From the IMG/VR virus record IMGVR_UViG_3300032954_000045, positions 1 to 39,717 of that record: a stretch of DNA of 39,717 nucleotides; one strand, given 5' to 3'. This stretch comes from a virus. The notes below the pieces were generated by a model that was given only the letters and a program-made list of their open reading frames with translations, did no database searches and had not been told where the DNA came from. This document shows, one piece after another, positions 6,659 to 28,005 of this stretch; position 1 is the stretch's first letter, and every line of letters starts with the position of its first letter. A program made the position numbers and the translations under genes.

Positions 6659-6967
6659 CTACCCCTTCGCTAAGTCGCGCTCCACTTCTTTAAACGAAAT
6701 CTGCCGGTGAATTTCCTTGTGGATTCCGTCAAGCTCGCGAATGATGAGCGTCATTTGGGCGCTTTCTGTCGCTTTTAAGTCCACAAGGTTTTTCTCTAAG
6801 GCATCAACTCTGGGAGCCAACTTGTCGGCTTCCTCAACGCGGTCCATCCACTGAGCATGAACCGTCACGACTTTAACGGCAAACACGATCGATGCCGCAA
6901 ACATCCCGATGATCGTCAAAATGAGCGTCCAGTCCATCTTCCGGCGTATCGGATGTTCAGTCATCAT
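6659..6967 (-). CDS. Membrane-anchored coiled-coil protein, holin or spanin candidate
   Basis: A 102-aa protein. A short basic N-terminus is followed by one membrane helix near residues 13-34 (WTLILTIIGMFAASIVFAV). A long charged coiled coil follows, with heptad-like leucines and isoleucines (VDALEKNLVDLKATES). This is the layout of inner spanins and of XhlA-like lysis accessories. Position just upstream of the endolysin on the same strand supports a lysis role. The ATG overlaps the preceding stop (ATGA). There is no second membrane span, so it is not a typical multi-span holin. Confidence 0.65.
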   Translation of the reverse strand: MMTEHPIRRKMDWTLILTIIGMFAASIVFAVKVVTVHAQWMDRVEEADKLAPRVDALEKNLVDLKATESAQMTLIIRELDGIHKEIHRQISFKEVERDLAKG

Positions 6968-8349
6968 TGCACCGTCGCTATCGTGGGATTTGGATGTTGG
7001 ATGCCGCCCACGTCTAAATAACTGGTGTTGCTTCCAGACTCAAACGTGCCGGGATACGCCACCTGCCGGACAGACGGGCCGCCGCCAGCCATAGAGTTCA
7101 GGCTCAGGTTTCCAGCGCCGCCATTGACGAAAGGTGAGGTTGTGATCGTGACTTGCGGCAACGCGAAGATCTTCCCTGATCCAAGACTCTCCCCGCTGAC
7201 GTTCCCGTACACGGCATCGTTGAAATAGACCCGCAGGCCGCCCGTCAGGTCGTGTCCGTATCGGCCATTGTTGACGACGATGTTATTGAGGTAAAAACCT
7301 TGGTTTCCTCCGGTCCCTTCGATGCCATCTCGCCCGTTTCCGTAGAAAGTGGAATTGACCACAACCCCAGTCGTTCCGTTATCGATCCCATCCGAACTGC
7401 CGCCCGTGTTGTTGTACCCGAGGCAGTACAAACACAAGCCCGTGGTCGCAAACCCGCTTGCGGTGTTGGCATAGGATTCGGTGCCGATAATGGCCCCGGT
7501 GCCCGTGAACGGTGTCGAGCTATTGGCGGTCGCGGCCGACCGAACCGTTACCCACGCCGCATCTGCCGCACTCGTAAATCCAGTAAAAGTGCAGCGATCA
7601 GCAATGGTGAAGTTGCCCGTGATGCCTTTTGAGGTAGTCTGGCTGGCTCCGTTAAAAGCGATGTTGCGGATGACCGAATAGGTGCTGTTGTTGTATATCG
7701 TTGCTGAGGAAACTCCGGAATTGAGCGTCAAAGTGGGCATGGAATCCGTATTCGTCAAGGTGCGATTGGTGTTGTAGCCGATGACGTAAATCTGGACAGA
7801 GCTAGTCATGCACCCTCCAGCTACGTTGGTGCTGGCGCTCGTGATTGTGAAAGAGCCATACTTGATGTAAATCGTCATTTGCGCGACGGTGGCATTTTTG
7901 GTTGCAATCCCTGGGCTCAAGAGAGCGCCGCCGATATTGATTGTCATGCCAGACGAACTGGCTATAGTCGTATCCATGGTCACGGTCGTGGCACTCGCGT
8001 AGGTGACTTGCCTCCACTGAGCTGTAATCGACCCGGAACCGCCCGCGACGTAAATGATGTTGCCTGTGATCGCGGAAGTGAAACTACAATCCGAGCACGT
8101 AAGAGTCGTCGTACCCGCCGACGATCCTAGGACGCTTGATCCGTTGTTGCCGCCGTTCGGGTTTGCGCTGGCTTGTTGGCTATAGTCGGTCCCGCTTGAT
8201 CCCGTCACAAACCCGCCGCCGTTCGTGTCACTGCCGCCCGTCTCGACTTCCCAGACCGTGTTAGCGGACAAGGCCGCATAGATAAGCTGAAAGTTCCCGA
8301 CCCAGAGGATCAGGCTGAGAGATAGGACGATAGCGACGAGTCGCCGCAT
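6964..8349 (-). CDS. Secreted right-handed beta-helix protein, possible tail spike
   Basis: A 461-aa protein. Residues 1-25 form a clear Sec signal (MRR, hydrophobic core, then LIYA) cleaved before ALSANT. The mature part opens with WEVETGGSDTNGGG and continues with Asn/Gly/Ser-rich turns (GNIIYVAGG, IYNNSTYSVIRNIAFNG, FYLNNIVVNNGRYG), typical of right-handed parallel beta-helices as in phage tail spikes. Paired cysteines occur (TCSDC, LCLYC). Such proteins bind or cleave surface glycans; no catalytic residues can be named. The Sec signal is unexpected for a virion protein. The ATG overlaps the previous stop (TAATG). Confidence 0.75.
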   Translation of the reverse strand: MRRLVAIVLSLSLILWVGNFQLIYAALSANTVWEVETGGSDTNGGGFVTGSSGTDYSQQASANPNGGNNGSSVLGSSAGTTTLTCSDCSFTSAITGNIIYVAGGSGSITAQWRQVTYASATTVTMDTTIASSSGMTINIGGALLSPGIATKNATVAQMTIYIKYGSFTITSASTNVAGGCMTSSVQIYVIGYNTNRTLTNTDSMPTLTLNSGVSSATIYNNSTYSVIRNIAFNGASQTTSKGITGNFTIADRCTFTGFTSAADAAWVTVRSAATANSSTPFTGTGAIIGTESYANTASGFATTGLCLYCLGYNNTGGSSDGIDNGTTGVVVNSTFYGNGRDGIEGTGGNQGFYLNNIVVNNGRYGHDLTGGLRVYFNDAVYGNVSGESLGSGKIFALPQVTITTSPFVNGGAGNLSLNSMAGGGPSVRQVAYPGTFESGSNTSYLDVGGIQHPNPTIATVQ

Positions 8350-8687
8350 TAAAATACCGAGGTCGCGTTGACTTGCACTTTGGCAATGTTCGTCAAGTAT
8401 CCGGAATTTGGCGTAACCGTTCCGGTTCCTTCAAAATAGTTCACGAGGTCTTGCGCGCGAAGGACGATGGCGTAAGCATCGTCGTTCGTGATCGGAGTGC
8501 GGCCATCGGTCGCGGAGCCGTCGGCGATGATCGTCTGGTCGCCCGGAGGACAGACCGCCGCGATGTTCTGCGCGTTGTATTGAAGAACCAAGCTCTTGGC
8601 TGAGAGGTAAGCCTGATAGAGAAGATTCGCCATTGGTCTGGCCCTCGTGTTGTCCCATGCTACAGCCTGCGGATTGGTGTTTGCCAT
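8349..8687 (-). CDS. Hypothetical structural-region protein, 112 aa
   Basis: AAAGGAG lies 7 nt before ATG 8687. The 112-aa product is mostly helical at first (MANLLYQAYLSAKSLVLQYN) and then has GDQTIIADGSATDGRTPI and a short C-terminal domain. It has neither signal nor membrane span. Its place between two exported fibre-like proteins suggests a small virion or fibre-assembly component. No family was recognised. Its Shine-Dalgarno overlaps the end of the upstream fibre gene. Confidence 0.7.
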   Translation of the reverse strand: MANTNPQAVAWDNTRARPMANLLYQAYLSAKSLVLQYNAQNIAAVCPPGDQTIIADGSATDGRTPITNDDAYAIVLRAQDLVNYFEGTGTVTPNSGYLTNIAKVQVNATSVF

Positions 8688-8697
8688 GATGTCTCCT

Positions 8698-11028
8698 TTA
8701 CGTTTTGTTGACCCAGATTTGGGTACTGCATTTGGTCGCGTTCGTCGGCACTGAACCTGTCAGATTGAAAAAGAGAATGTCTCCCTGATTTAGCGAACTC
8801 CATCCCGTCGCAGGCCCCGTTGCACCGATGGCATTTGAAACTGACGGACACGCCGAAGCGCAGATACTTCCGGCGGAAGCGCCGGGCGACGTGTCGGTTA
8901 AGGCCGTCGTCCAGCTCTCAGACGACACGGAAATGCTGATCGATGTGGTGTTTGAGTCGCAGAACACCGTGTAGCTGGACACCGTCGCCGCGTAAGGCAT
9001 TGCATACCAATAGAGGAGTGATGCGGTCGCCGAGGAAATGACCAAGCCTTGACCATTCAAGTTATAGGTGATGGCTTCCTGCGTGATGCTGGTCGTTGAG
9101 GAAAAGCCGCCAAAGGTCGTGGAATTCTGGTAATACTGGACTGATCCAGCGGAACCGCCCGGAGACCCGCCGCTACCGCCACCACAGGATCCCCAAGAAG
9201 GTGCAGTTGCCGTCCCTCCACTCTGCAAGCATTGGCCGGAAGTACCCGTAGCTCCAGCTGATCCAAGAGCGATGGTCGAGGAGATAAGGATAGTCCCCGC
9301 CGCCATCATACCTTGATTGAAAGTAGAACTGGCCGTAAACAAGGTTGCGCCATTTCCCAAAACGTAGAACCCAGGACTTAAGGATTCAGGAGTTTGTGCG
9401 GCGATGAACGTATAAGGATAGACTCCATTGTTGCTAACGGCCACCCTGGAATTGACTTCAGTTGGACTTGAATATCCAAACAGAACTTCTCCGTGGTCAG
9501 TTTCAAGAGCGTAATTCTCATTCGATGACCCCGAAGAATTAGCATAAACTCCAACGTTTAACGACGAACCGCCACCGTGCGCATTGAAGTACCCGCCCCA
9601 TACATCTATATTGTTAGCTACTCCTTCTCCATAAATTGCAATCCCATTCCCGCCCCCTGTCCCAGACGCCCTTCCATACACCCCATACTTGTTACCCACA
9701 CTCCCAGCGCCTTCAGCGTACACACCATAGTTCACTTGATTGGAATTGGTAGCTGTGAACTGACCGCCATAGTCCCATCCATTCCCTTGTGTGACAACTT
9801 CTGCGCGTCCGACCACGGCCACGGCGTCTTGTCCATTGCCTGCCACCAATCCGCCGTTCCCTGACACATGAGAATACAGTCCATACATCCCAGGAGCTTC
9901 CGTGCCACCTTCAGTACATTGAAAAGTACCACCTGCGGCTAAGTTGTTCAAACAAATAAGCGTTGTAGAACTGGCAGAAGTTGAATTGATTTGCAAAGAA
10001 CCCGTTGAATCAAACCATGCAAACTGCGCTAGATCCCCTGCAAGGGAAGTGCTGGAAGGAGTAACATTGTAATATGGAACCGAAAATTGGGACGCAACCT
10101 GCGTGTTGCCGCCACCGCCCCCACCGCTCGTAATGGTTGTCCAGGTAGGGACCGCTCCGGCGCCGCCAGAAGTCAGACATTGACCGCTTGTCCCGGCCGA
10201 TCCAGCCAATGTCATGCCGCCAGCAATGTTGGTCACGCCAAGCGTTGAGACGCTCAAATAATAGGTGCCATGGGCCGGTTCCGTATCAGCGGCCAGGATG
10301 TAGGTATCTGTCCCTGTCCTTGAGACAGCATTGACGGCGGTATAAGGCGTTCCACCACCATTACCGCCCAGCAAGAGCGTGTCGCCAGTCGCACCCGTCC
10401 CGGTGCTCATGCCCGTAGCGCTCTGGATATTGGTCTGGGCCGTTGAGGTGTTGTTGAATTTAAGGACAGCTCCGTTGATGTAGTTGTCGGACATCGTTAT
10501 GGAGTTTTCAGTCGTTATGCCGTTATAGAGTTGAAAATTCAAGGAATTGGAGGGGGCATTCGACATCAAAGGCGTGTACATGACCGGAGCGGAAGAGAAT
10601 TGAGTTGCCGTAAACGTGCTGACACTCATCCCCTGGTTATTGACCCACGTAAACGTGCCGGGAGAGACAATGCCGGAGCCGCCTGCTCCTCCGCTTGAAT
10701 TGATCGTGATTGCCGCCGTTGTTCCTCCGACCAAAGAGCCCGATAGGGTGACATTCGTCCCGGCAATCAGGTTGATAGAGGCGGTCGGGCTGGATACCCG
10801 GACCCCGTTTACCATGGTCTCAAGAGAAGAAGAACCGCCGCTACCGCCAGTTGTCAATGTGGCAGTTTGGCCTGCACAAGTAAGAGTCCCAGGTGAAACG
10901 TTTACTTGCCCAACAACACAAGAAGGAGAACCACTACTATCTTTTATCTTGATGGTTCCTGTAACGCCAGTATCAGCAAAAACCGAAGCCGCAAGACCAA
11001 GAATTAAGAGAAGCGATTTACGCACCAT
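8698..11028 (-). CDS. Large exported fibre-like protein
   Basis: A 776-aa protein. Residues 1-18 are a Sec signal (LLLILGLAASVFA) before DTGVTG. The mature part is rich in Gly, Ser and Thr. A TSGQCL-x-SGG element occurs twice, near residues 280 and 597, each followed by a P-x-W motif and a glycine-rich linker. Residues about 380-500 repeat YGVY/YG-x-x-x-G units. The C-terminal 100 residues form a cysteine-containing globular part. This resembles modular tail fibres and also bacterial surface proteins. A role in host recognition is inferred. The weak GGGA site is close to ATG 11028; its signal peptide is discussed in the findings. Confidence 0.7.
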   Translation of the reverse strand: MVRKSLLLILGLAASVFADTGVTGTIKIKDSSGSPSCVVGQVNVSPGTLTCAGQTATLTTGGSGGSSSLETMVNGVRVSSPTASINLIAGTNVTLSGSLVGGTTAAITINSSGGAGGSGIVSPGTFTWVNNQGMSVSTFTATQFSSAPVMYTPLMSNAPSNSLNFQLYNGITTENSITMSDNYINGAVLKFNNTSTAQTNIQSATGMSTGTGATGDTLLLGGNGGGTPYTAVNAVSRTGTDTYILAADTEPAHGTYYLSVSTLGVTNIAGGMTLAGSAGTSGQCLTSGGAGAVPTWTTITSGGGGGGNTQVASQFSVPYYNVTPSSTSLAGDLAQFAWFDSTGSLQINSTSASSTTLICLNNLAAGGTFQCTEGGTEAPGMYGLYSHVSGNGGLVAGNGQDAVAVVGRAEVVTQGNGWDYGGQFTATNSNQVNYGVYAEGAGSVGNKYGVYGRASGTGGGNGIAIYGEGVANNIDVWGGYFNAHGGGSSLNVGVYANSSGSSNENYALETDHGEVLFGYSSPTEVNSRVAVSNNGVYPYTFIAAQTPESLSPGFYVLGNGATLFTASSTFNQGMMAAGTILISSTIALGSAGATGTSGQCLQSGGTATAPSWGSCGGGSGGSPGGSAGSVQYYQNSTTFGGFSSTTSITQEAITYNLNGQGLVISSATASLLYWYAMPYAATVSSYTVFCDSNTTSISISVSSESWTTALTDTSPGASAGSICASACPSVSNAIGATGPATGWSSLNQGDILFFNLTGSVPTNATKCSTQIWVNKT

Positions 11029-11513
11029 TTGATCCCATCCACAATCCCTTTTCTATAAGCATGTTCACGAGTGGCATCCCCACGCATGACCTGGTAGGCG
11101 AAATAGGCATTGTTTTCATCCTGCTGGATTTTCTGCCATTCAAGTTCAATCTCTTGAGCTTTTCCAGACAATTTGACAAATTGCGACAAGAGTTTTAGTC
11201 GGTTCATTTCTTGATCATGCCCATTTGAAGATACAGCGACTGGGACAGGCTGTTGGGTCGTAACCGCAGGAGTCTCATGTCCCAGCCGCTGTAGCCTCAT
11301 CAGAGCTTCATCTAACTGAATCAATCTAGGGACCGTCGCTTCCAAAATAGCCAATTCCGAAACGCGCTTGTCCAAATCTCCGATCTTTTCAAGGATCGGT
11401 CCTAAAGCCGTCAATTTAGGAAGAATGGATTCAAGCGCGTCCAGTTGGTTGAATAGGCGAGTCAACAATTTGAATACATGCCGCAACAACAAAAGACGGC
11501 GCTTGATGGTCAT
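11004..11513 (-). CDS. Coiled-coil protein, 169 aa
   Basis: A basic, helical N-terminus (KRRLLLLRHVFKLLTRLF) is followed by heptad-like leucine/isoleucine repeats to about residue 85 (LTALGPILEKIGDLDKRVSEL). A Gln/Pro/Val linker comes next, and then a C-terminal helical domain ending YRKGIVDGIKWCVNRF. It may form a trimeric stalk next to the fibre gene. It overlaps the fibre start by 25 nt and the preceding gene by an ATGA. No named family was recognised. Confidence 0.65.
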   Translation of the reverse strand: MTIKRRLLLLRHVFKLLTRLFNQLDALESILPKLTALGPILEKIGDLDKRVSELAILEATVPRLIQLDEALMRLQRLGHETPAVTTQQPVPVAVSSNGHDQEMNRLKLLSQFVKLSGKAQEIELEWQKIQQDENNAYFAYQVMRGDATREHAYRKGIVDGIKWCVNRFS

Positions 11514-11812
11514 GCGAGGTCAAACTTCACCGTATACGTTCCATCCGAAGAAGCCGAAGCAATCGAAATCGTCGACATGATCCCCAAACTCATATTGAGT
11601 TCAGCGGAAAATGTTCCTAATTGCCCGGTCCATTTTCCCATGATCATGCCGTCGGCATCCGCGATTGTCAAAGTAAAGGTGTCGGTTTCGTTGACAGGTT
11701 TAACGCGGATCCATCGTGCTGTTGACCATTCATTCGTAAGCGTCAATGTCCCCGATCCGCTCGATACAGTGATCTTTCCGACTCTAGATGCTTGCGGCCC
11801 TTCGTTTGCCAT
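11510..11812 (-). CDS. Small beta-rich structural protein, 100 aa
   Basis: The protein alternates short hydrophobic strands with Ser/Thr turns (ITVSSGSGTLTLTNEW, TFTLTIADADGM, GTYTVKFDLA), as in compact beta-sandwich virion proteins. It has no signal peptide or cysteine. It lies between tail or fibre genes and a DUF6496-like gene. A decoration or fibre-tip role is a guess from fold type and position only. The stop overlaps the next start (ATGA). Confidence 0.65.
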   Translation of the reverse strand: MANEGPQASRVGKITVSSGSGTLTLTNEWSTARWIRVKPVNETDTFTLTIADADGMIMGKWTGQLGTFSAELNMSLGIMSTISIASASSDGTYTVKFDLA

Positions 11813-11815
11813 AGG

Positions 11816-12007
11816 TTAATCCCCGTGATGCGTGATTCCCTTAAACTTCGGTCGTTCGGCGTATTCTTTCTTTCCCCCTTCAGCCGCTCGCTTTTCTGAA
11901 AGCATGATCGCTACAGCCTGTGGCTGGCTTTTCACTTCCGGACCTTTCTTTGATCCCGAATGCAGTTTTCCTTCTCCGAACTTCTCCATTACCTTATTCC
12001 AGGGCAT
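11816..12007 (-). CDS. DUF6496-like small protein
   Basis: I choose ATG 12007 because AGGAGG lies 5 nt upstream; an in-frame start at 12055 has no such site. The 63-aa product includes KVMEKFGEGKLHSGSKKG and QAVAIMLSEKRAAEGG. This matches my memory of DUF6496 proteins (a KV-M-EF-x-GxLHSG element and a QAIAIALSEA helix), found in many phage structural regions. Function is unknown. The protein is very basic and could bind DNA. Confidence 0.7.
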   Translation of the reverse strand: MPWNKVMEKFGEGKLHSGSKKGPEVKSQPQAVAIMLSEKRAAEGGKKEYAERPKFKGITHHGD

Positions 12008-12015
12008 ATATCCTC

Positions 12016-12207
12016 CTAGTCGCGCTCGTAACGGGGAAGATGCTTCAATCCCCATGTATCTTGATCTCTATCGTGAACTCTAATCCCGCGCTTCGCAAAT
12101 GCGGATACAGTATCCGGCGTATCGTTCGATTTGGCTTTGCCTTCACGAATGGCCTGCGCGTCTACTTCTTTCTGATCAATCGGCTTGATTGTCACTTTGA
12201 TTTTCAT
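12016..12207 (-). CDS. 63-aa basic protein, paralogous motif with the next gene
   Basis: GGAG lies 6 nt before ATG 12207. The product starts with a beta-strand-like MKIKVTIKPI. It carries SAFAKRGIRV near residues 35-44, then ends in a charged RDQDTWGLKHLPRYERD. The neighbour at 12209-12430 has KAFSRKGITV, suggesting two divergent copies of one small fold. Both sit beside a DUF6496-like gene, so they may be co-assembled virion peptides. No family name can be given. Confidence 0.6.
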   Translation of the reverse strand: MKIKVTIKPIDQKEVDAQAIREGKAKSNDTPDTVSAFAKRGIRVHDRDQDTWGLKHLPRYERD

Positions 12208-12208
12208 A

Positions 12209-12430
12209 TCACGCTCCTATGTTCGGCCCATAACGGGCGATTCTATCTTGAGGAACAGCAGGCCCCACAACCGGGTCCGTAATCCGCGCAATTTGCTGGG
12301 CTTGTTCGTTTTGTTCGGCTGGCGTCTGGGCTCCAATTTGGGCCGCTGGAATCGAATTGTGTTGACGCACCGTTATGCCCTTGCGCGAAAAGGCCTTGAC
12401 AGCGTTTCCGGATGGGTTTAGACTGTTCAT
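12209..12430 (-). CDS. 73-aa protein, paralogous motif with previous gene
   Basis: The protein starts at ATG 12430 behind an AGGG run. KAFSRKGITV at residues 12-21 parallels SAFAKRGIRV in the 12016 gene. A Gln/Ala-rich linker follows (IGAQTPAEQNEQAQQIA), with a proline-containing tail. It is probably mostly disordered apart from the motif. It sits just downstream of the internal-virion-type genes. Function is unknown. Confidence 0.6.
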   Translation of the reverse strand: MNSLNPSGNAVKAFSRKGITVRQHNSIPAAQIGAQTPAEQNEQAQQIARITDPVVGPAVPQDRIARYGPNIGA

Positions 12431-12464
12431 ATGCAGATCGCCCTTTCTGTTGCTCTTGGGATCA

Positions 12465-13658
12465 TCATTGTGAAGTTCCTTGATGCGCTATGGGAACATT
12501 TGACTGGCCCTGCTCCAGATATTTCGCAACAAGAGCCCGAATGGCGGGATTACCTGCTGCGCGGTCCAGCAAATCGGCCAAACTACCAGCCCCCGAAGCA
12601 GCAACTCCCATTGCCAAAGGTGAAGTAGCGCCTAAAGCTGCAGCCGCTCCTAATCCAGGAGCTGTAGAATGTGCTCCTAAACCTATTGCACCACTACCTT
12701 CAATCAAATATCTTCCAAGTTTTGAATATTCATTAGGATTGCTTTTATTAACTGGCAATGGTTTAGAAAGATTAGAACGTAAAGCAGAAGCTGCATAATT
12801 TGAATTCGCTTTCGCAAATGCTTGGGCTTCCGGACTAGGGTCTTGAGCAATGATTCCATTTAATGTATTTTCAAATTCTGATAATTTAGCTGCTTTTGGC
12901 GTTAGCTTTGTAGGATAAATCGTTCCAATTCCAACCTTTGCCCCAACGGCTTCTTGTGTGGAAATGGGTTCCCCTTTCAACCATTTCACGTAGACATCAG
13001 AGACTTTCTGATTGGCTTCTCCCTTAGGATTAAAAAGAATCGCTCCTTGCTCTTCCGGAGTTAAATGTTTTGTAACAGCATTTTGCAATGCTTCTCCGAA
13101 TTCTTGTCCTGATTTTTCTATGCTTTGAGGAGCTATATATGTTTGATAAAATCCTCCCTTATAAGCACGATCCAAATTGCTGGCAGGTGTTCCAGAAACC
13201 ATCTCGCCTAGTTTTGCGCCCGGAAGATTTTCAGGAGTTACGGAAACGTCTCCGCCAGGCATGACATAAGAACGAGGATCAACAGCAGCTCCCGCAACAA
13301 GTCCAGCCGCTCCCTGCATTAATGGCCCTGCGCCTGCCTGTTGCATAAGATTGGACGCCCCTTGCGAAGCTGGCGCAGATGCTCCTCCTAATGTGTTAGA
13401 AAGACGTGCGGGAGCCATGATCTGATTTTGAATGGTCTGTAATGCTTGACCTGTTGGAGTCGTTGCCGTATTAGGTTGAATCCCAAATGTCTGAGCCGCC
13501 GCATTCAGGCCCATCATAGCCGGATTTGATCCTTGCGGTTGAATGGGAGCCATACTCGGTCCCTGTGAAATCGAAGACGGTTGATTTTGAACTGGAGAAT
13601 CAGGAATAAATCCATCTTCAGTTTGTGCCGTATCAGGAACAAACCCGTCACTGCTCAT
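12465..13658 (-). CDS. Internal virion/ejection-type protein (tentative), 397 aa
   Basis: The first 110 residues are low-complexity Gln/Pro/Ala/Gly. The middle is charged and helical (HLTPEEQGAILFNPKGEAN, DVYVKWLKGEPISTQEAV). Near residues 320-365 lies a glycine/alanine hydrophobic stretch (GLGAAAALGATSPLAMGV) that could enter membranes, as in DNA-ejection proteins of podoviruses. There is no lysozyme motif. It is the first of three large adjacent genes of similar character. The ATG overlaps the preceding stop. This DNA is more AT-rich than the flanks. Confidence 0.6.
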   Translation of the reverse strand: MSSDGFVPDTAQTEDGFIPDSPVQNQPSSISQGPSMAPIQPQGSNPAMMGLNAAAQTFGIQPNTATTPTGQALQTIQNQIMAPARLSNTLGGASAPASQGASNLMQQAGAGPLMQGAAGLVAGAAVDPRSYVMPGGDVSVTPENLPGAKLGEMVSGTPASNLDRAYKGGFYQTYIAPQSIEKSGQEFGEALQNAVTKHLTPEEQGAILFNPKGEANQKVSDVYVKWLKGEPISTQEAVGAKVGIGTIYPTKLTPKAAKLSEFENTLNGIIAQDPSPEAQAFAKANSNYAASALRSNLSKPLPVNKSNPNEYSKLGRYLIEGSGAIGLGAHSTAPGLGAAAALGATSPLAMGVAASGAGSLADLLDRAAGNPAIRALVAKYLEQGQSNVPIAHQGTSQ

Positions 13659-15070
13659 GAGAGTTTGTCATACTTGTTCGGATCAAAATTAGCTGCTGGC
13701 ATTGTTCCGGTCTGGCCTGTAGCTTTATTGCGAACGCGAATTGTCCCATTATTTTGTCCACTAAAATCGAACTTTGGAACCTGTGCGGCTTTTAAGGTTC
13801 CGCCAAAAGCTCCTACTGTACTTTGCGATCCTTTTGTTAAAAGCTGATGTTGATTATTTAGCTTGTTGTACATATCTGAAAATCCAGCGGAGACTACTTT
13901 TGGATCGTCTGCAACCGATGGAAGACTTGCTGCAATTTCTTGAACTGCTTGAGGATTTGTTCTTGAGCTTTCCGGAAGTAATGCAGTTGCCAATGTAGTA
14001 ATTGCCGCTGTCCTCGCTTTATTAGCGGCTACTAATTCGGGAGCTTGTTTCCCAGCCGCTGATCCTGCTTTGCCAGTAACTATTCCAACACCAGCTCCTC
14101 TCAAGTTAGGAGGAACAGCCTGAAGAGCTTTATAATAATCACCCAATGCTAAAAATCCCGCTTGGATTTTATTGTCTTCTGCGTTGTATTTTGATTGTTC
14201 CTCGGCTGATTTCCCAGCAATCCAATTAGGAACCTGTTGTTGAGCGTTCGCCAGGTCTGCCTGATTCTTCGCCGCAATCGTTGGTTGCTGGGACTGCTCA
14301 AACTGGCCCTTTTGAATGCCTTGCTGTTGAAGCTGTTGCTGGCCCGGTTGTAAGGCCAGATTGCCAATCGTCTGAAGTCCCTGTAACGCCCTCCCTCCGA
14401 ATTGACCCATGCTCGCTAACTGTCCTGCTTGATTTGGTTGCAAGCCAAGACTGGCTAAATATTGCGCTTGTGCGTCTTGACCGCCAATGCCTTGACTTTG
14501 CATGTGGTCGTGAATCGTTTGAGGAAGACCAGAGGTCGGGTGCATCATCGGCTGACCCGGTTGCCATCCTTGCGCGGCGTTCGGGCTTTCTCCGCCTACT
14601 CCACCCGTTCCGGGCGATGTTCCTTGACTTGCTGGAGGTGTTCCGTTGGCATAAGCTGGCGACGGATTCGGAGATAACGTCTGCGCGGATGTCTGAGCAG
14701 GTTGTCCATTATTGCCCATTGTTGCTCCGCCTGGAGTCCCGGCAACAGGCGGTATTCCCACGTTTCCAGAAGAAGGTTGAATACCAGGATTTTGGTTTGG
14801 GTTCGGCGTATTGGGGTTTGTTCTGTTTCCATTGATCAAATTCATCAAGTACGGACCACCCTGACCAAACGCTTCGATCTGCAAAGCTTTTTGTTTGTTC
14901 TGATAGTCTAGATAATCGTTGATACCTTGTCGAAGACCGGCCGGAATGCTCTGAAGTTCTTGCTGTTGACGGTTCAAATAACTGTTCACTAAATCCGTCG
15001 GAATAGGAACGGGCCCCTGATATTGGGGATTTCTTTGTGGGATCTGAAAATTAGCTGGTGTCGGTTCCAT
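13655..15070 (-). CDS. Internal virion-type protein with C-terminal RVRNKxTGQTG motif, 471 aa
   Basis: The first 180 residues are a Pro/Asn/Gln/Gly-rich disordered head. A helical middle follows (AQYLASLGLQPNQAGQLASMG; LGDYYKALQAVPPNLRG). The end is a compact domain with GTIRVRNKATGQTGTMPAANFDPNKY. I have seen that final motif at the C-terminus of phage internal or ejection proteins, where it resembles a small beta module. The role is inferred from the motif and from position between tail and fibre genes. It has no signal peptide. Confidence 0.65.
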   Translation of the reverse strand: MEPTPANFQIPQRNPQYQGPVPIPTDLVNSYLNRQQQELQSIPAGLRQGINDYLDYQNKQKALQIEAFGQGGPYLMNLINGNRTNPNTPNPNQNPGIQPSSGNVGIPPVAGTPGGATMGNNGQPAQTSAQTLSPNPSPAYANGTPPASQGTSPGTGGVGGESPNAAQGWQPGQPMMHPTSGLPQTIHDHMQSQGIGGQDAQAQYLASLGLQPNQAGQLASMGQFGGRALQGLQTIGNLALQPGQQQLQQQGIQKGQFEQSQQPTIAAKNQADLANAQQQVPNWIAGKSAEEQSKYNAEDNKIQAGFLALGDYYKALQAVPPNLRGAGVGIVTGKAGSAAGKQAPELVAANKARTAAITTLATALLPESSRTNPQAVQEIAASLPSVADDPKVVSAGFSDMYNKLNNQHQLLTKGSQSTVGAFGGTLKAAQVPKFDFSGQNNGTIRVRNKATGQTGTMPAANFDPNKYDKLS

Positions 15071-15085
15071 AAAAATTCTCCTAAA

Positions 15086-16069
15086 CTAAATAGTCGCCGA
15101 AGCCGCCGTGCTTCCTAATGCTCCTACTTTACTTAAACCACCTAATAAACTCCCTACAGCGCCTAATCCCTGAAACCCTGTACTAATGTCTCCCAGAACA
15201 CCCGATTTGCCATATTGATTCAAATAATTGTTGTAGGCTTGAAGTTGCATCTGGTACATATTCAGATTTTGGTTGTACTGAGTATTTGCCGACTGATTTG
15301 CCAGAGCATTCGAAACACCTGCATTTTGTAAACCATACTGTTGATTCATCAAACTATTGTATTGGCTTGCGGCATTTGCCGTCGAGTTCTGATAGTTTTG
15401 CGCGGTCACACCCGCTAAGAAGTTCTGAAGTCCCTGATTCTGCTGAAGTGCGGCATTGGCTAATTGCGAAGAAAGCGCCGATGATCCAGGAGCTTGTCCG
15501 GACATGGCATTCTGCGCTTGAAGAGACGGAGCAATGTACTGATTGAAATATGTCGAATTCGACTGCTGAAGTTGGTTCTGTAACTGGTTTTGAAAGTTCG
15601 TATTCTGAACGTTCTGATATTCCTGCGTCTGCTGAAGAGCCTGCTGAACCTGATACTGATCTTGTCCAGACGCCATCAACGATCCGTAATATTGCTGTTC
15701 CGCTGTCGTCGGAGCGCGTCCTAAAGTTGTTTCAAATGCCGACGATACCTGGTCTGAATAATTGCCAGCCTGTGCCGCATATTGCGCTTGTTGTTGTTGA
15801 TAAATAGCCTGCGGCGTATTGTTTAATTGTGTGTAATAAGCCGCAACGGCTGCATTGCCGCCCGAAACGTTTGCTTTATTCGGATCTCCGGAATTGTAGG
15901 AAGGAGCCAACATATCCAATTCCGCTTGGGTTGGATTCCGTCCGAACATATTGACGAAATCTGTCCAAGCATAGACTTGTTGAGCTTGTGTTCCACCTCC
16001 GGAACCGCCCCATGTTGGAGCGGTTGTTAAAGGTGTTTCTCCTGCCGGTGGATCAGTTGGACTTGCCAT
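15086..16069 (-). CDS. Gln/Asn-rich internal virion-type protein with DUF4214-like segment
   Basis: A 327-aa protein, extremely rich in Gln, Asn, Tyr and Ala. Residues about 110-150 contain FETTLGRAPTTAEQQYYGSL and QALQQTQEYQN, close to the 'LGR-P-x-x-x-E-x-x-Y' pattern of DUF4214 repeats found in surface and phage proteins. The C-terminus is a glycine-rich hydrophobic stretch (GFQGLGAVGSLLGGLSKVGAL) that could insert into membrane. With the next two genes it forms an ejection-protein-like trio. The function is inferred. Confidence 0.6.
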   Translation of the reverse strand: MASPTDPPAGETPLTTAPTWGGSGGGTQAQQVYAWTDFVNMFGRNPTQAELDMLAPSYNSGDPNKANVSGGNAAVAAYYTQLNNTPQAIYQQQQAQYAAQAGNYSDQVSSAFETTLGRAPTTAEQQYYGSLMASGQDQYQVQQALQQTQEYQNVQNTNFQNQLQNQLQQSNSTYFNQYIAPSLQAQNAMSGQAPGSSALSSQLANAALQQNQGLQNFLAGVTAQNYQNSTANAASQYNSLMNQQYGLQNAGVSNALANQSANTQYNQNLNMYQMQLQAYNNYLNQYGKSGVLGDISTGFQGLGAVGSLLGGLSKVGALGSTAASATI

Positions 16070-16078
16070 AAAGTTCTC

Positions 16079-16684
16079 CTAACGTATTCTCCGCGCCGAT
16101 ATCCGAGCGTCAAATGTCGGCGATCCCGAAACAAACGTTACTTCGCCCTTGAGGTAGTAGGTCGCTCCGGATCCGATCGATACCCGGAAAGACGGAACGG
16201 CTAAAGATGCCGTAGACATCGACGCGACGTTCAATTGAGCGGTGTTGTTGCCGGAAATAAACCCGGTCGTGTTGTTGCCGGAAGCCGTACCGATCCCGAT
16301 CAAAATTAAAGACGCGCCCCCGATGCCGTTAACGACGGCACAGATCGAAATGTCCCAGTCGCCGGGCGTGAGCGTGATGTTAAGAAGGTCTTTGTATACG
16401 CCAGTCGTCCCGGATGGAATCACCGTGTTGTCCGTTTCGATCCATTCGCCGACGTTGCCCGAGGAAGCGGAATTATTCGTCTGAGTTCCTTTCAGATTAG
16501 TAATTGTTGCCGTCGATATTGTCAGCGTTGAAGCAGTTCCGTTATTGATCGTCGGATAGCTGATGTTATGACAAACGTTTCCCATGTCCTGATCAAGGCC
16601 GGGAATGGATGGATAGTTGTATTCAGGACACGATGCCGCGTGAAGAATCGAAGAGCAAAAAAGGATCAGAAAAATTTTCTTCAT
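16079..16684 (-). CDS. Exported beta-sandwich fibre-tip-like protein
   Basis: I choose ATG 16684, which overlaps the previous TGA; ATG 16702 would add six residues. The 201-aa product has a Sec signal (MKKIFLILFCSSILHA). After a short linker comes WIETDNTVIPSGTTGVYKDLLNITLTPGDWDISICAVVNG, an order (plateau, G-x-y-x-x-LLxLTLxPGxWxI) typical of trimeric beta-jelly-roll modules in phage receptor-binding proteins. Host binding is likely, but a signal peptide on such a protein is unusual. The cysteines in the mature N-terminus (SCPEYN, NVCHN) fit periplasmic oxidation. Confidence 0.7.
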   Translation of the reverse strand: MKKIFLILFCSSILHAASCPEYNYPSIPGLDQDMGNVCHNISYPTINNGTASTLTISTATITNLKGTQTNNSASSGNVGEWIETDNTVIPSGTTGVYKDLLNITLTPGDWDISICAVVNGIGGASLILIGIGTASGNNTTGFISGNNTAQLNVASMSTASLAVPSFRVSIGSGATYYLKGEVTFVSGSPTFDARISARRIR

Positions 16685-19239
16685 TGAAGAACCGGCTTCC
16701 ATGACAATGGTTCATAGTGAACACGATGCGCCATCAGCGTCCACTTAGCATTGGAAGAGTTATCGCCAATGGTGAAGTCGTAATATTTCCCGATCTTGCC
16801 GACTGGCAAAAGGAAGTTGCGCTGGATCAATGAAGCCGCAGGATCATAAGCCGTCATTGTAAAGACCGTCGAATTCTTGCTGTCGAGCGTGTAAGTATAG
16901 GAAAGAGTCGTCGAGCTTTCGCCTAAAACAAAGTCGGCTTGCGTGAATTCTTTTTGCACGAAGAGATCATTGGTTGCCGGGAAACTAATAGTCTGGCCAT
17001 CTCCCGACTGTTCAGCCGCATTGAAAAGGAAATCCGGCGACCGCCAATAAGATTTGATCGGATTTCCGTTATCGGTTGTGACGCCGCCGTATTTGTAGAC
17101 ATAGGGCCCCGACGGGCTCCCGAAATAGAGCGCGTTATTTTCAATCAAGAATCCATTCGACGGAATATCGTAAATAACCCAAGCTCCATTTAAGAGGTCC
17201 CAATAGAAAATCCGATTGTTTAAAGAAGTCGTTGAACTAGATGACACCGAAAACCAAATGGCATCATTGAAATAGGTCATGTAGGATTTGTCGGAAGCGG
17301 AACCTTCATACCAGTTAAAAACAAAGTTGTTTAAACTGGGGGCTGCAAAAGTTGCAGTTGATCTTGAAAAGTCTGCGCGGGCTTGCATGTATGTACCAGT
17401 CGAAACAACAAGAGCTGAATTTTTAGGTTGAAGTTTCCATGTGGGAGTAGCAGAATTTACTGCAAAAGAATTTGTTCCTACGCGAACATAGTATGTGATA
17501 GAACTGATGTCTGGATCATTATCTAAAACAGAAAAATTACTCCAAGATGTCAAATTTGGAGCATTGTTGACTTGAGAATAAAATGAACCTGTATTGTAAA
17601 TAGGTGAACTTGCAGTAACACCCCCTTGGATATTATCAATTCCGTAGTGTACTCCAGTAGGACATCCTCCACCACCTGTTGAATAAGTATCCATATTGGC
17701 ATAAAAAGTAAAAGTATTCGAAGAAATAAAAGTTGAAGTTGATGCTAATTGAAATTGGTATTGATTTCCGATTTCGCCATAATAATGGTCATAAAAAATA
17801 ATATAAACGGGAACGTTAACACATGCCGCTGGAAGTGTTACTGTATTAAGAGTCCATGAACATTGACTTGCAGAAACACCCTGAACAAAAGCTCCTGTTA
17901 ATGTGCATCCTGAAGCTGTAGGACTATAAATTAAAACACTCGGACCATACCAACCAGGTCCACAAATTTCATTCTCCATCGCAAAATATGAACCATCTTC
18001 TGGTGTAATAGTGCAATGAACTCCGGCTGTACTGGAAGATTGGCTCCAATAAGTTGTATAGGTCCAAGTTGTATTAATCGTTCCTTCAAAACTGTTATCA
18101 GGAACATTTGTACTATAAGAAACAGTAGCAGAAGATAAAGTCAATGTCGGAGGAGCCACCGAGGTCGATAACGACAAAGAAGGATTAAAACTTCCAGCAA
18201 CCCAATCAGTTGAAAATTGTTGTGTCCAAGAGTTTGCTTTTTTGCGACTGGCCGCCGTCACAGTCGGTGTAATGGGACGGCTGAGGCGCGTGAGGTAATA
18301 CCCGTCATAAACGTAAATATGATTGTCTTGTCCACGGAAGAATATGCCGCCTGGACTGGCGTTGGCGTTTGCTTGGGCAGTCCCCGAGAACATCGTCCCA
18401 GAATCGAATCCAGAAGAGTTCCAGAAAGCATCGGAATTGTCTAACGTACCGATCTGGTTTGAAATAATTGTCAGTTGCCAATCGTTCTGGCCGGTAAAAG
18501 TCGCGTAGCCAAACGACTGATCCTTCCACCAAAACAACCGCCCAAAGTAGTATGCGAGATGCGTAATGCGACTGCCGGGAGAAGCAATAGGCTCAGTAAA
18601 AGGACTAGAAGGAAGAATACCGGGCGTGAACTGGTTAAAAGCCAATTGAGCAGAAACGTAAATCGTATTCGCATTGCCGGATACCCCCGCGACAACAAGT
18701 TGTAACGGCGTAAAGGCTCCCATCGTGCCGGACGGCGCGGAACTGAAATAGACCGTATTGGCTTTGGTCCCATCGGTCTGAATCGGCGTATCTCCGGCCG
18801 AGGAGAAGCAATAAGCGTATCCTTGTGAATCCGTACATTGCCAAGTCGCTTCATACGTCCCGGTCGCCAATGCTACAAACGATGCATCCGAAACCGATCC
18901 ATAAAGAGTATTGGAAGAAGCCCAGATTTGAACATCAGAACCACCTAACTGCTGAAAATGGTAGCCACCATGAATGCCTTCGGATGTGTAAGTGGAATTA
19001 AGCGTCTGGAACAGGCCATATCCATCCCGTTTGAAGATAGCTGATCCTCCGGGTTGAATGTTGACGTTTAAAGTATCCTGCGAGAAATTGGACTGAATCG
19101 CGGAAGGGTTATCTAGCGTGTCTAAACCGCCCGAAAAATTGGAAACGATAATATCCCCCGCCAAAGCGGGTTTAGACCCTAAAAAGGCCAAAAGTGGCCC
19201 AAATAGGGCTATTCTGGCAAGCTTTCTTAATACTTCCAA
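16681..19239 (-). CDS. Large exported tail-nozzle/hub-like protein with inserted domain
   Basis: The start is TTG 19239 with GGGGGA upstream. The 852-aa product has a Sec signal to about residue 27 (FGPLLAFLGSKPALA). The mature start (SNFSGGLDTLDNPSAIQ, DTLNVNIQPGGSAIFKRDGYG) matches the N-terminus of podovirus tail-nozzle or beta-propeller hub proteins. Short WD-like strands follow. Residues about 333-633 differ in base composition and hold PDNSFEGTINTTW and several cysteines, resembling a lectin or MAM-like jelly roll. The C-terminal part returns to the hub pattern. It follows the tail adaptor, consistent with a tail-tip role. Confidence 0.75.
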   Translation of the reverse strand: MEVLRKLARIALFGPLLAFLGSKPALAGDIIVSNFSGGLDTLDNPSAIQSNFSQDTLNVNIQPGGSAIFKRDGYGLFQTLNSTYTSEGIHGGYHFQQLGGSDVQIWASSNTLYGSVSDASFVALATGTYEATWQCTDSQGYAYCFSSAGDTPIQTDGTKANTVYFSSAPSGTMGAFTPLQLVVAGVSGNANTIYVSAQLAFNQFTPGILPSSPFTEPIASPGSRITHLAYYFGRLFWWKDQSFGYATFTGQNDWQLTIISNQIGTLDNSDAFWNSSGFDSGTMFSGTAQANANASPGGIFFRGQDNHIYVYDGYYLTRLSRPITPTVTAASRKKANSWTQQFSTDWVAGSFNPSLSLSTSVAPPTLTLSSATVSYSTNVPDNSFEGTINTTWTYTTYWSQSSSTAGVHCTITPEDGSYFAMENEICGPGWYGPSVLIYSPTASGCTLTGAFVQGVSASQCSWTLNTVTLPAACVNVPVYIIFYDHYYGEIGNQYQFQLASTSTFISSNTFTFYANMDTYSTGGGGCPTGVHYGIDNIQGGVTASSPIYNTGSFYSQVNNAPNLTSWSNFSVLDNDPDISSITYYVRVGTNSFAVNSATPTWKLQPKNSALVVSTGTYMQARADFSRSTATFAAPSLNNFVFNWYEGSASDKSYMTYFNDAIWFSVSSSSTTSLNNRIFYWDLLNGAWVIYDIPSNGFLIENNALYFGSPSGPYVYKYGGVTTDNGNPIKSYWRSPDFLFNAAEQSGDGQTISFPATNDLFVQKEFTQADFVLGESSTTLSYTYTLDSKNSTVFTMTAYDPAASLIQRNFLLPVGKIGKYYDFTIGDNSSNAKWTLMAHRVHYEPLSWKPVLQ

Positions 19240-19976
19240 TTCCGTCCCCCTTGAATCCGGAATGGTTCGTCTGCTTCGAGGTCGTAATAAAGCTGAGTTA
19301 CCAGGCTCATGTAGCCATTGGCCTGGGTACGGAACATCTTGGCTTTTAAGACAGTAGCTTGAGTCGGGTCGGGTTCCAAAAGAGAAGCAGCTACGTCAAT
19401 GGCAAGACCAGCCAAATACGGCAAAATAAGCGTGTTTTGTACGCCATTAACCGTAAATGGCGTGTCAGATGCATTTACAAGTGGCTGGTGTGGCGTAATG
19501 TAAGACAACGTCAATGGGTTTTGCCCGGAAATCCCGACGTTGTTGGTGTAAGTCGTTGCATCGCCAGCCTGCGGCGTCGGATGCAGAATCAAAGACGGCG
19601 GCACGGAATTGAGGTCAATTGCCCATTCTTGCGGGGTACCGATTGAAGTCGTCCAGTCGTTGGCGCTGTAAAGGTCCATGTAATCGATTGATTTTTTGAC
19701 CAAATCGACGCCTTTGATCGCTACCCGCAGGATCTTGATAACCGGCAAACTCGCTATTTGACCGGATCCGGTAAGCGGATAACGATACTGGTTCTCAATC
19801 AACGCCGAATAATCCGTCATGCGGCAAATCTTACATTCCATGTTCCATCGCATCTGCGCCAAATCTAGATAATTGTTGATGACAGGAATCGTATAGCGCG
19901 TGAAAGAAGGATCGTTGACAAGTTGCCCGATGTACCCTTGAAGGTCAGATAAGGTTTGTGGATAAAAGGCTACCAT
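19227..19976 (-). CDS. Tail adaptor, P22 gp4-like
   Basis: A 249-aa protein. It starts with MVAFYPQTLSDLQGYIGQLVNDPSFTR and a helical RYTIPVINNYLDLAQMRWNM, then a beta-rich middle (YRYPLTGSGQIASLPVIKILRV). Near residues 200-235 is a long helix (LAGLAIDVAASLLEPD). This is the head-to-tail connector layout of P22 gp4 and related adaptor proteins, which seal the portal and anchor the tail. The position between the glycan cassette and the nozzle gene fits. It overlaps both neighbours by short stretches. Confidence 0.75.
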   Translation of the reverse strand: MVAFYPQTLSDLQGYIGQLVNDPSFTRYTIPVINNYLDLAQMRWNMECKICRMTDYSALIENQYRYPLTGSGQIASLPVIKILRVAIKGVDLVKKSIDYMDLYSANDWTTSIGTPQEWAIDLNSVPPSLILHPTPQAGDATTYTNNVGISGQNPLTLSYITPHQPLVNASDTPFTVNGVQNTLILPYLAGLAIDVAASLLEPDPTQATVLKAKMFRTQANGYMSLVTQLYYDLEADEPFRIQGGRNWKY

Positions 19977-21090
19977 CTGAAATCCCCCTTAAAAGTCGCA
20001 TGTATTGCGTTGAGGTTTTGCGAACGTTAAAATCAGTTTTGACGCTCTGATAGGCCTGTTCGCCCATCTGACGGCGCAATCCCTCGGAATCAATCAAAAG
20101 TTGAAGACGTGACTTCCATTCTTCAAGATCATGAGCTAAGAAGCCTGTTTTTCCTTCTTCTATCGAGCGCACAAAATCCGGAAGCGGAGAAGCCACACAC
20201 GGAATCTCTAGGGCCGAATATTCAAGCCATCGCAAATTCGATTTGCCACGATTAAAATTATTGTCAACCAAAGGAGCGATACCAATATCAAACTTAAAAG
20301 AAGACATGAATTTCGGGTATAGATTGATTTTGCTCCATTTATGAGTCCAGTAAGTATGGGCCATTTTCTTGACGGCTGGAGTGGCTCCGTGGATGCAATA
20401 GAACCAGACTTTCGGGTTTTCATTGATGAGTTCCTCAATGACCGGCAACACCACATCTAAATCCGGGCCATGCGTCCCGCCGCCAATCCAACCGATCCGG
20501 ATCCGATCTGAACCTTTACGAATTCGTGCGGAGTCCCAAGCCTTGAAATCAATCGAGTTCGGAACGACAAAAATATTGGCGTTTCGGTTGGAATATTGTT
20601 CTTTCAAATAAGGCGTAGAAACAATTACACCGTCTGACTGGCGCATTTGTTCCATGGCAATGGCTGTTCGCCTAGAACCGGGCCGCATCTGGTCAAAACC
20701 AGCGTTTCCAAGAGGAATGTCAATGATATAGTCGTCGATTTCCATCAAGAACGGTTTCTGATGACGCGCTCGTAAATCCATCCAGAATTCAAAAGAATGT
20801 TCAAAATCGAGCATTTGCCAGACCACGACATCCGCTTTTTCACAGAGATAGTCAATACGATCACGAACCATCGGCGTGTCGACCATATCGATCTGCCAAG
20901 GGTTTTGGATTGTGATGTTCTTGGAATATGGCCAGACAACCGTTTCGACATTCGGCCAACTACGCATCGCCCAGGCAAAATTGGCCATGCGATAATACGC
21001 TACTCCCGATACCGTGGTCGGGATGAAAACAACCCGAAGCGTCTTGTTACGGCGTGACAAGATCGCCGGAGATTCCTGCAAGATAGGCAT
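19945..21090 (-). CDS. GT4-like (GT-B fold) glycosyltransferase
   Basis: A 381-aa protein with the GT-B pattern. The N-terminal Rossmann domain begins KTLRVVFIPTTVSGVAYYR. The donor-binding domain follows the VVPNSID linker at 175-181 and includes RIRIGWIGGGTHGPDL (197-211). FDIGIAPL at 267-274 and KSNLRWLEYSALEIPCVAS (283-301) correspond to the GT4 nucleotide-sugar region. It would transfer a sugar from a nucleotide or phosphate donor; donor and acceptor cannot be told. It overlaps the following GT2 gene by 44 nt, so they are coupled. It is unusual between capsid and tail genes. Confidence 0.8.
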   Translation of the reverse strand: MPILQESPAILSRRNKTLRVVFIPTTVSGVAYYRMANFAWAMRSWPNVETVVWPYSKNITIQNPWQIDMVDTPMVRDRIDYLCEKADVVVWQMLDFEHSFEFWMDLRARHQKPFLMEIDDYIIDIPLGNAGFDQMRPGSRRTAIAMEQMRQSDGVIVSTPYLKEQYSNRNANIFVVPNSIDFKAWDSARIRKGSDRIRIGWIGGGTHGPDLDVVLPVIEELINENPKVWFYCIHGATPAVKKMAHTYWTHKWSKINLYPKFMSSFKFDIGIAPLVDNNFNRGKSNLRWLEYSALEIPCVASPLPDFVRSIEEGKTGFLAHDLEEWKSRLQLLIDSEGLRRQMGEQAYQSVKTDFNVRKTSTQYMRLLRGISDGSLLSTNLI

Positions 21091-24880: not shown

Positions 24881-25443
24881 GCTGTCGCCTTGACCATAAG
24901 TGAAATCAATCGATTTCCGCGATTTTCTCGAAGTTTTGAGCAATCATTGATGTCATAAGGCATTGCCTGAATTCTTTCAACGTCTTCAAATCCCGCTTCT
25001 GTCAAATGTTCACCCAGACGCGCATAATTGAATACGTTATAATGATTCCCGAAAGTTTCTTGCTTATCTGGTTCTCCATAAATAAGTTCGATCAGATATG
25101 GCGATAACCCATCCGATTGATACAGACGAACGATAACATCCCAATCCGGAACCGCCATATAAGCGACTCCACCTTTTTTCAATACTCTTCGCCATGTGCG
25201 AAGCACGTTTAATGTTTTCGTCCAGATGAAATGTTCCAGTACATGGCTTGCATAAATCTCTGAAATTGTCGCGTCTTTAATCGTATGCAACGTCGATATA
25301 TCATCCAGAATATCGGTCGTCGGTAAATCCTGCAAATCTACATTCAAAAATCCTGGAATGCGCGTCTCGCGTCCACCGATATTTAAACAAACAGACGCCC
25401 CCGCCTTGGATGTGATCAGGTCCAAAACGGGGGCGCTGTTCAT
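24877..25443 (-). CDS. Class I SAM methyltransferase, COG4627-like, copy 1
   Basis: A 188-aa protein with CLNIGG (motif I), GFLNVDLQDLPTTDILDDIS, SEIYASHVLEHF, WRRVLKKGGVAYMAVPDWD and a C-terminal LTEAGFEDVERI. These are the ordered elements of small Rossmann methyltransferases of the COG4627 type. With copy 2 it forms a tandem duplication whose sequences have drifted apart, suggesting different methyl positions or substrates. Its ATG shares one base with the capsid gene's stop (TAATG), so it is translated with the capsid. Confidence 0.8.
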   Translation of the reverse strand: MNSAPVLDLITSKAGASVCLNIGGRETRIPGFLNVDLQDLPTTDILDDISTLHTIKDATISEIYASHVLEHFIWTKTLNVLRTWRRVLKKGGVAYMAVPDWDVIVRLYQSDGLSPYLIELIYGEPDKQETFGNHYNVFNYARLGEHLTEAGFEDVERIQAMPYDINDCSKLRENRGNRLISLMVKATA

Positions 25444-26501
25444 TACAGAATTTCGTGCGTCAGAAGAATCCGGCCAGCCGACGGATTCAAGGCTACGGCC
25501 ACGCCATAGATCTTGTACGTCACGTCAACGAACTGGTCGAAGGGATCTGATTTATCTGGTCCACGAGCCACGATCATCTTGACGTTTCCATCCAAGGACG
25601 TAAAGCCAAAAGCCTGTTGTCCGAAGATGAAACTGAGATTGATCGAGAAAGCCGACGTGCGATATTGCGGACAGAGGGCCGATTGCACCCACCGGACGCC
25701 GTTAACCGCCATGCCGACTTCACCTTTGTACATCGTCTCTTTCGAGTTCTGATACTGGTTCCAGTCTTTCCAGGTGTTATCTTTCATCAGCGTATGCAAC
25801 GCTCCCGGCGAAGCATACCCGACGAAATATCCGTCTGCGAAAGGTTTCGCAAATACTTTCCGAAGCGCTGTCACCGTTTTCCGTACGGAATAAACGCTCA
25901 ACTGCGCCGATGTGGAAGGCGCAGAAGCTTTTACCGCCGAAATACGGGTCGTAGAAGCCCCATACAGAACCGGAAACTGGAACTGATAGTCAGACGTGTT
26001 GTGCGTTCCTGTGACCGCACAATATGCCGATGCAGGCGACGTCACATAGGACGAAATGATGGTGGTTGTCGCACCAGTCGTAACTCCGTTCTTAGCGATG
26101 TTCGCCTTGTAAATGCCCATCTTGCACATATTCTCAACGGTTTCGGCCGCCGAGTCCGCTAACCGTTCCATCGCGCCATTGACCGCATCAAAGATGTAAG
26201 TCATGGTCGAAAGGTCGGTCAGTTTCACGCCACGTCCGTATCCGGCAATTGTCCCGGTGACTTTGCGCGAAGAAAGAGCAACCAAACTATTGGCCGTTCC
26301 TTCCGTCAAAGTCGAAGACGCGCCGACAATTCTCTGCCACCCATTGAACTGAGCGGTGATGCCCGTGCGTAACGGAACTTCATCACGCTGTGCAAACTCA
26401 ATTAAGGGTGTTTTGGGAACGAGAGTCGCAATGATCTTGCGACTGAACCACGACAACAACAGGTTGTTGTTGGTAGTCGTGGTGGTATTAGTATCCGCCA
26501 T
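25443..26501 (-). CDS. Major capsid protein, N4-gp56 family
   Basis: A 352-aa protein. It has TPLIEFAQRDEVPLRTGITAQFNGWQRI near residues 31-58, typical of the N4-gp56 HK97-fold major capsid proteins. A conserved ATLTEGT-like turn, a long helix (AMERLADSAAETVENM) and a C-terminal VTYKIYGVAVALNPSAGRI follow. It would form the icosahedral shell. It directly follows the scaffold-like gene, and the glycan cassette starts at its stop. No Shine-Dalgarno is evident before the ATG, which is odd for such an abundant protein. Confidence 0.9.
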   Translation of the reverse strand: MADTNTTTTTNNNLLLSWFSRKIIATLVPKTPLIEFAQRDEVPLRTGITAQFNGWQRIVGASSTLTEGTANSLVALSSRKVTGTIAGYGRGVKLTDLSTMTYIFDAVNGAMERLADSAAETVENMCKMGIYKANIAKNGVTTGATTTIISSYVTSPASAYCAVTGTHNTSDYQFQFPVLYGASTTRISAVKASAPSTSAQLSVYSVRKTVTALRKVFAKPFADGYFVGYASPGALHTLMKDNTWKDWNQYQNSKETMYKGEVGMAVNGVRWVQSALCPQYRTSAFSINLSFIFGQQAFGFTSLDGNVKMIVARGPDKSDPFDQFVDVTYKIYGVAVALNPSAGRILLTHEIL

Positions 26502-27611: not shown

Positions 27612-28005
27612 TGGCTTCACCTTGTGGGCCTGTCGCCAGGTTGTCCACCCTTTCGTCTAATGGCACAGTCCGTCCGAACCAACTGGGCCCAGATGATTCT
27701 TTCGGATTGTTGTGCTGTTCATACAGTTCCGTATCTACCGCCGTCTGACTTTCCAAAATCTGGTTTAAACAGAAAATGATCGCCCGTCTTCGTTCGGCGC
27801 GATACCGCATATCGTCCAACTTGTTCGCGTCAAGGCCTTTATCTACCGCAACGTTAATAGCCCGAAGTTCGTCAACAAGAGCGTTCAGCCAATGTTTCCG
27901 TACAGCTCCATTCTCCAGTGCCGCCGTCAGATCGTCTAACGCCGCATCTTTGAAGTTTGTGACGGTCGGTTCGTAAAGCGACTCGATCCATTTTCGAAGT
28001 CTCAT
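27601..28005 (-). CDS. Hypothetical protein between portal and scaffold, 134 aa
   Basis: The protein begins MRLRKWIESLYEPTV. It has a helical middle (DDLTAALENGAVRKHWLNALVDELRAINVAVDKG), then RRRAIIFCLNQIL and a polar C-terminus. The ATG overlaps the portal stop (ATGA), and its end overlaps the scaffold start by 11 nt. Small genes in this position often encode portal- or scaffold-associated factors, but no family was recognised here. Confidence 0.65.
   Translation of the reverse strand: MRLRKWIESLYEPTVTNFKDAALDDLTAALENGAVRKHWLNALVDELRAINVAVDKGLDANKLDDMRYRAERRRAIIFCLNQILESQTAVDTELYEQHNNPKESSGPSWFGRTVPLDERVDNLATGPQGEANAS

Follow-up and report, generated by a model that had tools for sequence, protein, structure and literature searches.

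Tailed phages are held to assemble entirely in the cytoplasm, where the tail nozzle usually binds the head-tail adaptor, keeping the DNA inside. Virion proteins that are exported by the Sec pathway, with cleavage of their signal peptides (SPs), are known from the coats of filamentous phages, which are extruded through the envelope, unlike the phage described here, which is tailed and packages with a terminase. The nozzles of P22 (gp10), SU10 and T7 (gp12) resemble the one considered here, a beta-propeller as predicted by Foldseek comparison, which is likewise encoded directly after the head-tail adaptor; P22 gp10 and T7 gp12 lack an SP (scores of -7.7 and -8.3 with the scorer described below), whereas one is predicted on every nozzle seen in the present clade. 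The closest annotated cultured relatives found are Bacillus phage Page and other Pagevirus members, with 19-20% identity in the major capsid protein (MCP) and similarity to a stretch of the Pascal nozzle; the nozzle-like gene of Page (14582-16366) is without an SP-like hydrophobic core. Tail-fibre or structural proteins of two cultured podophages, Burkholderia phage BcepC6B gp19 and Xanthomonas phage PBR31 orf035, do have a predicted SP at the start (12.5 and 13.7), and orf035 is related to the C-terminal part of the fibre tip discussed here. In BcepC6B the fibre-like protein is the only SP bearer among five virion-region proteins scored, and the comparison covers this fibre-like protein. The open-licence literature, represented mainly by titles and abstracts, yielded nothing on SPs of nozzles or fibres of tailed phages. 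Phage DGR target proteins are reported without SPs in one study (PMC6199706), and the PBR31 paper uses “signal peptide” once, about gp40 and not orf035 (PMC10975493).

The stretch of DNA analysed (the window) spans an entire IMG/VR virus record, IMGVR_UViG_3300032954_000045, of 39,717 nt and of podovirus type, in which an end repeat was sought and none was found, so that the genome may be incomplete. Besides the SU10-like portal, the MCP and TerL, which carries a Terminase_6C domain, it has, in this order, a glycosyltransferase/methyltransferase block, head-tail adaptor, nozzle (NOZZLE), fibre tip (TIP), three internal-type proteins, large fibre (FIBRE) and helix protein (HELIX) (Table 1). Four glycosyltransferase-like and two methyltransferase-like genes lie between MCP and adaptor (19945-25443), and glycosyltransferase genes occupy the equivalent place in the relatives inspected.

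Table 1. Positions in the window of the SP-bearing genes, their predicted SPs and the control genes.
Feature	Position	Strand	Basis
NOZZLE, tail nozzle, predicted beta-propeller, P22 gp10/SU10 type, 852 aa	16681..19239	-	Foldseek; position after adaptor
NOZZLE predicted Sec SP, residues 1-27, predicted cut ALA^GD	19159..19239	-	Score 7.1; relatives
TIP, jelly-roll tail-fibre tip, 201 aa	16079..16684	-	phrog_11393 tail fiber protein, E 2.5e-8; Foldseek
TIP predicted Sec SP, residues 1-16, predicted cut LHA^A	16637..16684	-	Score 11.1; relatives; alignment
FIBRE, large tail-fibre-like protein, 776 aa	8698..11028	-	N-terminal ~85 aa conserved, remainder variable
FIBRE predicted Sec SP, residues 1-18, predicted cut VFA^D	10975..11028	-	Score 15.8; kept against drift, two pairs
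HELIX, putative beta-helix protein, 461 aa	6964..8349	-	Repetitive beta-rich sequence, by eye
HELIX predicted Sec SP, residues 1-25, predicted cut IYA^A	8275..8349	-	Score 6.8, single sequence
Head-tail adaptor, no SP (control)	19227..19976	-	Alignment; 19 distinct N-termini, maximum score 1.7
MCP, no SP (control)	25443..26501	-	phrog_1357, E 6e-31; 32 distinct N-termini, maximum score 1.2
Portal protein, no SP (control)	28002..30254	-	Pfam SU10_portal, E 2.6e-15; score -4.4

Sec SPs were scored with a custom scorer that was written for this analysis, is unpublished and is not SignalP. In leave-one-out calibration all of 30 known E. coli SPs scored at least 6.8, and in a 37-gene region of K-12 the proteins FhuA, FhuD, BtuF, DegP, BamA and Skp scored 8-18, with comparable false positives confined to CdsA and FhuB, both multi-spanning membrane proteins. 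The annotated virion proteins of phage Page all score at most 4.5, and one of 23 virion-region proteins of T7 and P22 scores high (T7 gp14, 9.2). If the start may be placed anywhere within 50 codons, values of 8-10 are also reached by some glycosyltransferases, whose cores are less hydrophobic, so that the score by itself is not proof of an SP. The original prediction, that four virion-type proteins of the window begin with Sec SPs, is borne out at this level: N-termini of this type are present on all four, and these are the best four scores of 36 window genes (FIBRE 15.8, TIP 11.1, NOZZLE 7.1 and HELIX 6.8). The next gene, g6659, scores 6.0 and encodes a membrane helix, while the MCP, portal, adaptor and internal proteins all score below 0. 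The values for NOZZLE and HELIX are close to the bottom of the range of known SPs, and for NOZZLE the relatives therefore carry weight. Judged by the scorer, the relatives and cut sites read by eye, the N-termini have the basic n-region, uncharged hydrophobic core and small residues at -3 and -1 of substrates of Sec and signal peptidase I: MRRLVAIVLSLSLILWVGNFQLIYA^A in HELIX, MVRKSLLLILGLAASVFA^D in FIBRE, MKKIFLILFCSSILHA^A in TIP and MEVLRKLARIALFGPLLAFLGSKPALA^GD in NOZZLE. By reading, a lipobox with Cys at +1 (signal peptidase II) is absent from all four window proteins. Among the relatives, the nozzle of L046 (8721 onward) is the sole case with a possible lipobox, LAGC.

Comparison of the nozzle model by Foldseek gave P22 gp10-type proteins in BFVD and, at a Foldseek probability of 1.00, the PDB tail complexes of Pan3, Pam1, VP1, P22 and SU10, with the LME-1 complex also matched; confidence in the model is low (pLDDT 51), and unrelated propellers match it too. 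No sequence match of the nozzle was found in the PDB or PHROGs. The folds agree with placement of the nozzle in the P22 gp10/SU10-type virion family, as far as the model can be relied upon, and the position of the gene directly after that of the adaptor is conserved in relatives. The TIP model (pLDDT 68) matches the cyanophage A4 portal-tail complex, the short tail fibre of A-1(L) and TNF-like lectins, and its C-terminal beta-sandwich part matches tail fibre PHROGs. For HELIX, no match was found in Pfam, PHROG or PDB, and no relatives were found in viral contigs with the single sequence as query; FIBRE as a single query likewise found none in phage records and viral contigs.

Relatives were collected from IMG/VR by nozzle searches (L002-L012) and by an MCP profile search (L016-L055), and the nozzle, tip, adaptor and MCP sets were all scored under one lenient start rule. 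All 17 further distinct nozzle sequences begin in an SP-like way (median 9.4, minimum 4.3), and a small residue stands at -1 of 18/18 nozzle cut sites, chosen by eye. The tips of 11/11 relatives have an SP-like N-terminus as well, with a median of 12.1 and ten at 8.2 or above; the tip of L012 scores 1.7, yet reads as an SP (MKKLLFLLIFYPVIGLC^EGP). Proteins with predicted SPs occupy the fibre position at the same locus in L003, L004, L005, L010, L011 and L012, and the FIBRE N-terminus resembles its L011 counterpart (52% over 87 aa). In the controls there are no SP-like N-termini, whether among adaptors (0/19, maximum 1.7) or MCPs (0/32, maximum 1.2). Two further records, L060 and L065, were retrieved afterwards by way of the tip, and both have an SP-like start on nozzle and tip (nozzle of L060, MLRNKLSLLMVLLSTFCFS^EN; tips of L060 and L065, MKTLLLLLLSSTAFA^GG). 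The nozzles of these two (L060:2050-4827 and L065:2071-4827) are nearly identical at both ends and differ in the central region, which suggests domain exchange.

SP character is thus conserved on distal tail genes and not on head genes. When random mutations were introduced into one SP of a pair until it differed by as many nucleotides as the two real sequences do, and its score was compared with that of the partner, the score proved to be kept beyond neutral drift in six of seven pairs, where 0.07% to 2.4% of simulations match; in the most similar pair, the window and L002, 39% of simulations keep the score. The residues of the SPs diverge while their character is kept. Going by sequence, the proteins of the distal tail (nozzle, fibre tip, large fibre and spike-like protein) probably bear real Sec SPs and would be exported.

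T7 gp14, an internal virion protein with a score of 9.2, is a point against export, as it shows that hydrophobic virion N-termini can have other causes. As in other podovirus tail and ejection proteins, uncleaved hydrophobic helices could insert in the host membrane at infection and help to form the DNA channel, for which a distal tail location would be suitable. We consider this rather unlikely, as neither the small -1 residues of the 18 nozzles nor the short basic n-regions are needed for insertion, and fibre tips and fibres, which form no channel, bear the same element. An N-terminal propeptide cut by a cytoplasmic host protease, with an incidental resemblance to an SP, has a parallel in P22, the record of which gives the N-terminal 20 residues of gp7 as cleaved by host OpdA. 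P22 gp7 is not SP-like (-14.1), and nozzle, tip and fibre here all share a basic start, a hydrophobic core and a small residue at -1, making this explanation very improbable.

It had also been proposed that the fibre modules derive from surface genes taken up from a host, and their SPs would then be leftovers. For NOZZLE and TIP this is not supported, as they belong by fold and by tail-fibre PHROGs to virion-specific families (P22 gp10/SU10 in the case of the nozzle) and sit in a conserved head-to-tail gene order, and their SPs are kept against drift; nor was a bacterial-genome homologue of nozzle or MCP found in searches made for host assignment. HELIX and FIBRE lack relatives as single queries in the phage records searched, as capture might predict, and we keep it as an alternative for HELIX only, where it would be surprising.

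The start codons of the nozzle genes bear on whether all of the product would be exported. NOZZLE begins at a TTG preceded by GGGGGAC, and the nozzles of L009, L010 and L012 start with ATG or TTG. There is no in-frame ATG, GTG or TTG ahead of the h-region in L002-L007; candidate starts there and in L011 are ATC, ACG or CTG (L002:9941-10034, L003:9866-10067, L004-L007 and L011:9977-10001), the start region of L011 reading CTG AAA AAG. Because the usual codons are absent upstream of the SP, the translated nozzle N-terminus of these seven relatives is uncertain; the simplest reading of their sequences is non-canonical or coupled initiation. Adaptor and nozzle frames are -1 related in all seven sequences read. 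A frameshift fusion of the two is unsupported: no slippery site was seen that is convincingly conserved, and the RNA folds hardly, if at all, better than its shuffles do (z of -1.6 to 0).

Weak or missing canonical starts in close-clade nozzles, together with an in-frame TTG or ATG within the h-region of most of them, would suit a dual localisation, in which export is inefficient, or starts are weak or alternative, so that some product stays in the cytoplasm for virions while some is exported and serves display at the surface, exclusion of superinfecting phages or binding as a decoy. The internal start is absent in L003 and L011, the tip and fibre starts are ordinary (ATG or NTGA overlap) and give full SPs, and there is no sign of two products. 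The start of TIP itself is its second ATG (16684), which shares the sequence ATGA with the stop codon of the nozzle gene. Dual localisation is thus an unlikely account, if a little less so than membrane insertion. Surface display as the purpose of the SPs, another of the possibilities raised at the outset, may apply to the fibres and leaves the SP on the nozzle unexplained.

The mature parts contain 6 (HELIX), 11 (FIBRE), 3 (TIP) and 8 (NOZZLE) cysteines. Cysteines per 100 aa come to 1.39 for tip, 1.38 for helix, 1.05 for fibre and 0.73 for nozzle, compared with 0.72 in the MCP, 0.63 in the adaptor, 0.47 in the portal and 0 in scaffold and internal proteins, a modest enrichment of SP-bearing over cytoplasmic virion proteins. 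The view that all four have paired cysteines is sustained only in part. One pair is strongly conserved, in the nozzle, where C135 and C144 (WQC-x8-C) occur in 17 of 18 distinct sequences (the 20 rows of the list include L043 and L049, repeat contigs of L009 and L010) and also in L060 and L065. Both are lost in L035, and joint loss is as expected for a predicted disulfide.

The SPs split the virion into an unsignalled set (portal, adaptor, MCP, scaffold and internal proteins) and a signalled set (nozzle, tip, fibre and helix). Their presence on the distal tail, the channel-closing nozzle ring among its parts, and not on the head suggests that head and tail are made in separate compartments and come together late. 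Of the three meanings first offered for the SPs, the best fit is folding in the periplasm ahead of tail addition, given SPs that are confined to the distal tail and kept across a divergent clade, and a co-conserved Cys pair. Under such a scheme, the head, portal, adaptor and internal proteins would remain in the cytoplasm, the site of DNA packaging, while nozzle and fibres would leave it through Sec and lose their SPs to signal peptidase I; their folding and some disulfide formation would take place outside the cytoplasm. The exported tail parts would join filled, adaptor-closed heads only once the inner membrane opens through holin and lysis, and tail completion would thereby be coupled to lysis. 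Because the nozzle normally retains the DNA, late joining demands heads that are stable with the adaptor alone. We give the full scheme, from heads filled in the cytoplasm and a tail matured in the periplasm to their union at membrane opening, an even chance or somewhat less. If true, it would mean a two-compartment assembly, and phage growth would draw in a new way on the Sec pathway, signal peptidase and oxidative folding of the host; BcepC6B and PBR31, which are cultured and have a single SP-bearing fibre, make part of it testable already.

A small protein of 95-137 aa with a predicted SP (scores 6.8-15.7) lies near the glycosyltransferase block in relatives (L002:5639-5947, L003:5627-5914, L005:299-619, L011:5648-5938 and L035:4690-5103) and was not seen in the window. 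Two repetitive proteins are encoded on the plus strand of the window, one rich in GNSG/GHWNSG-type repeats (2324-3190) and one with a long repetitive tract rich in alanine and tyrosine (39117-39626).
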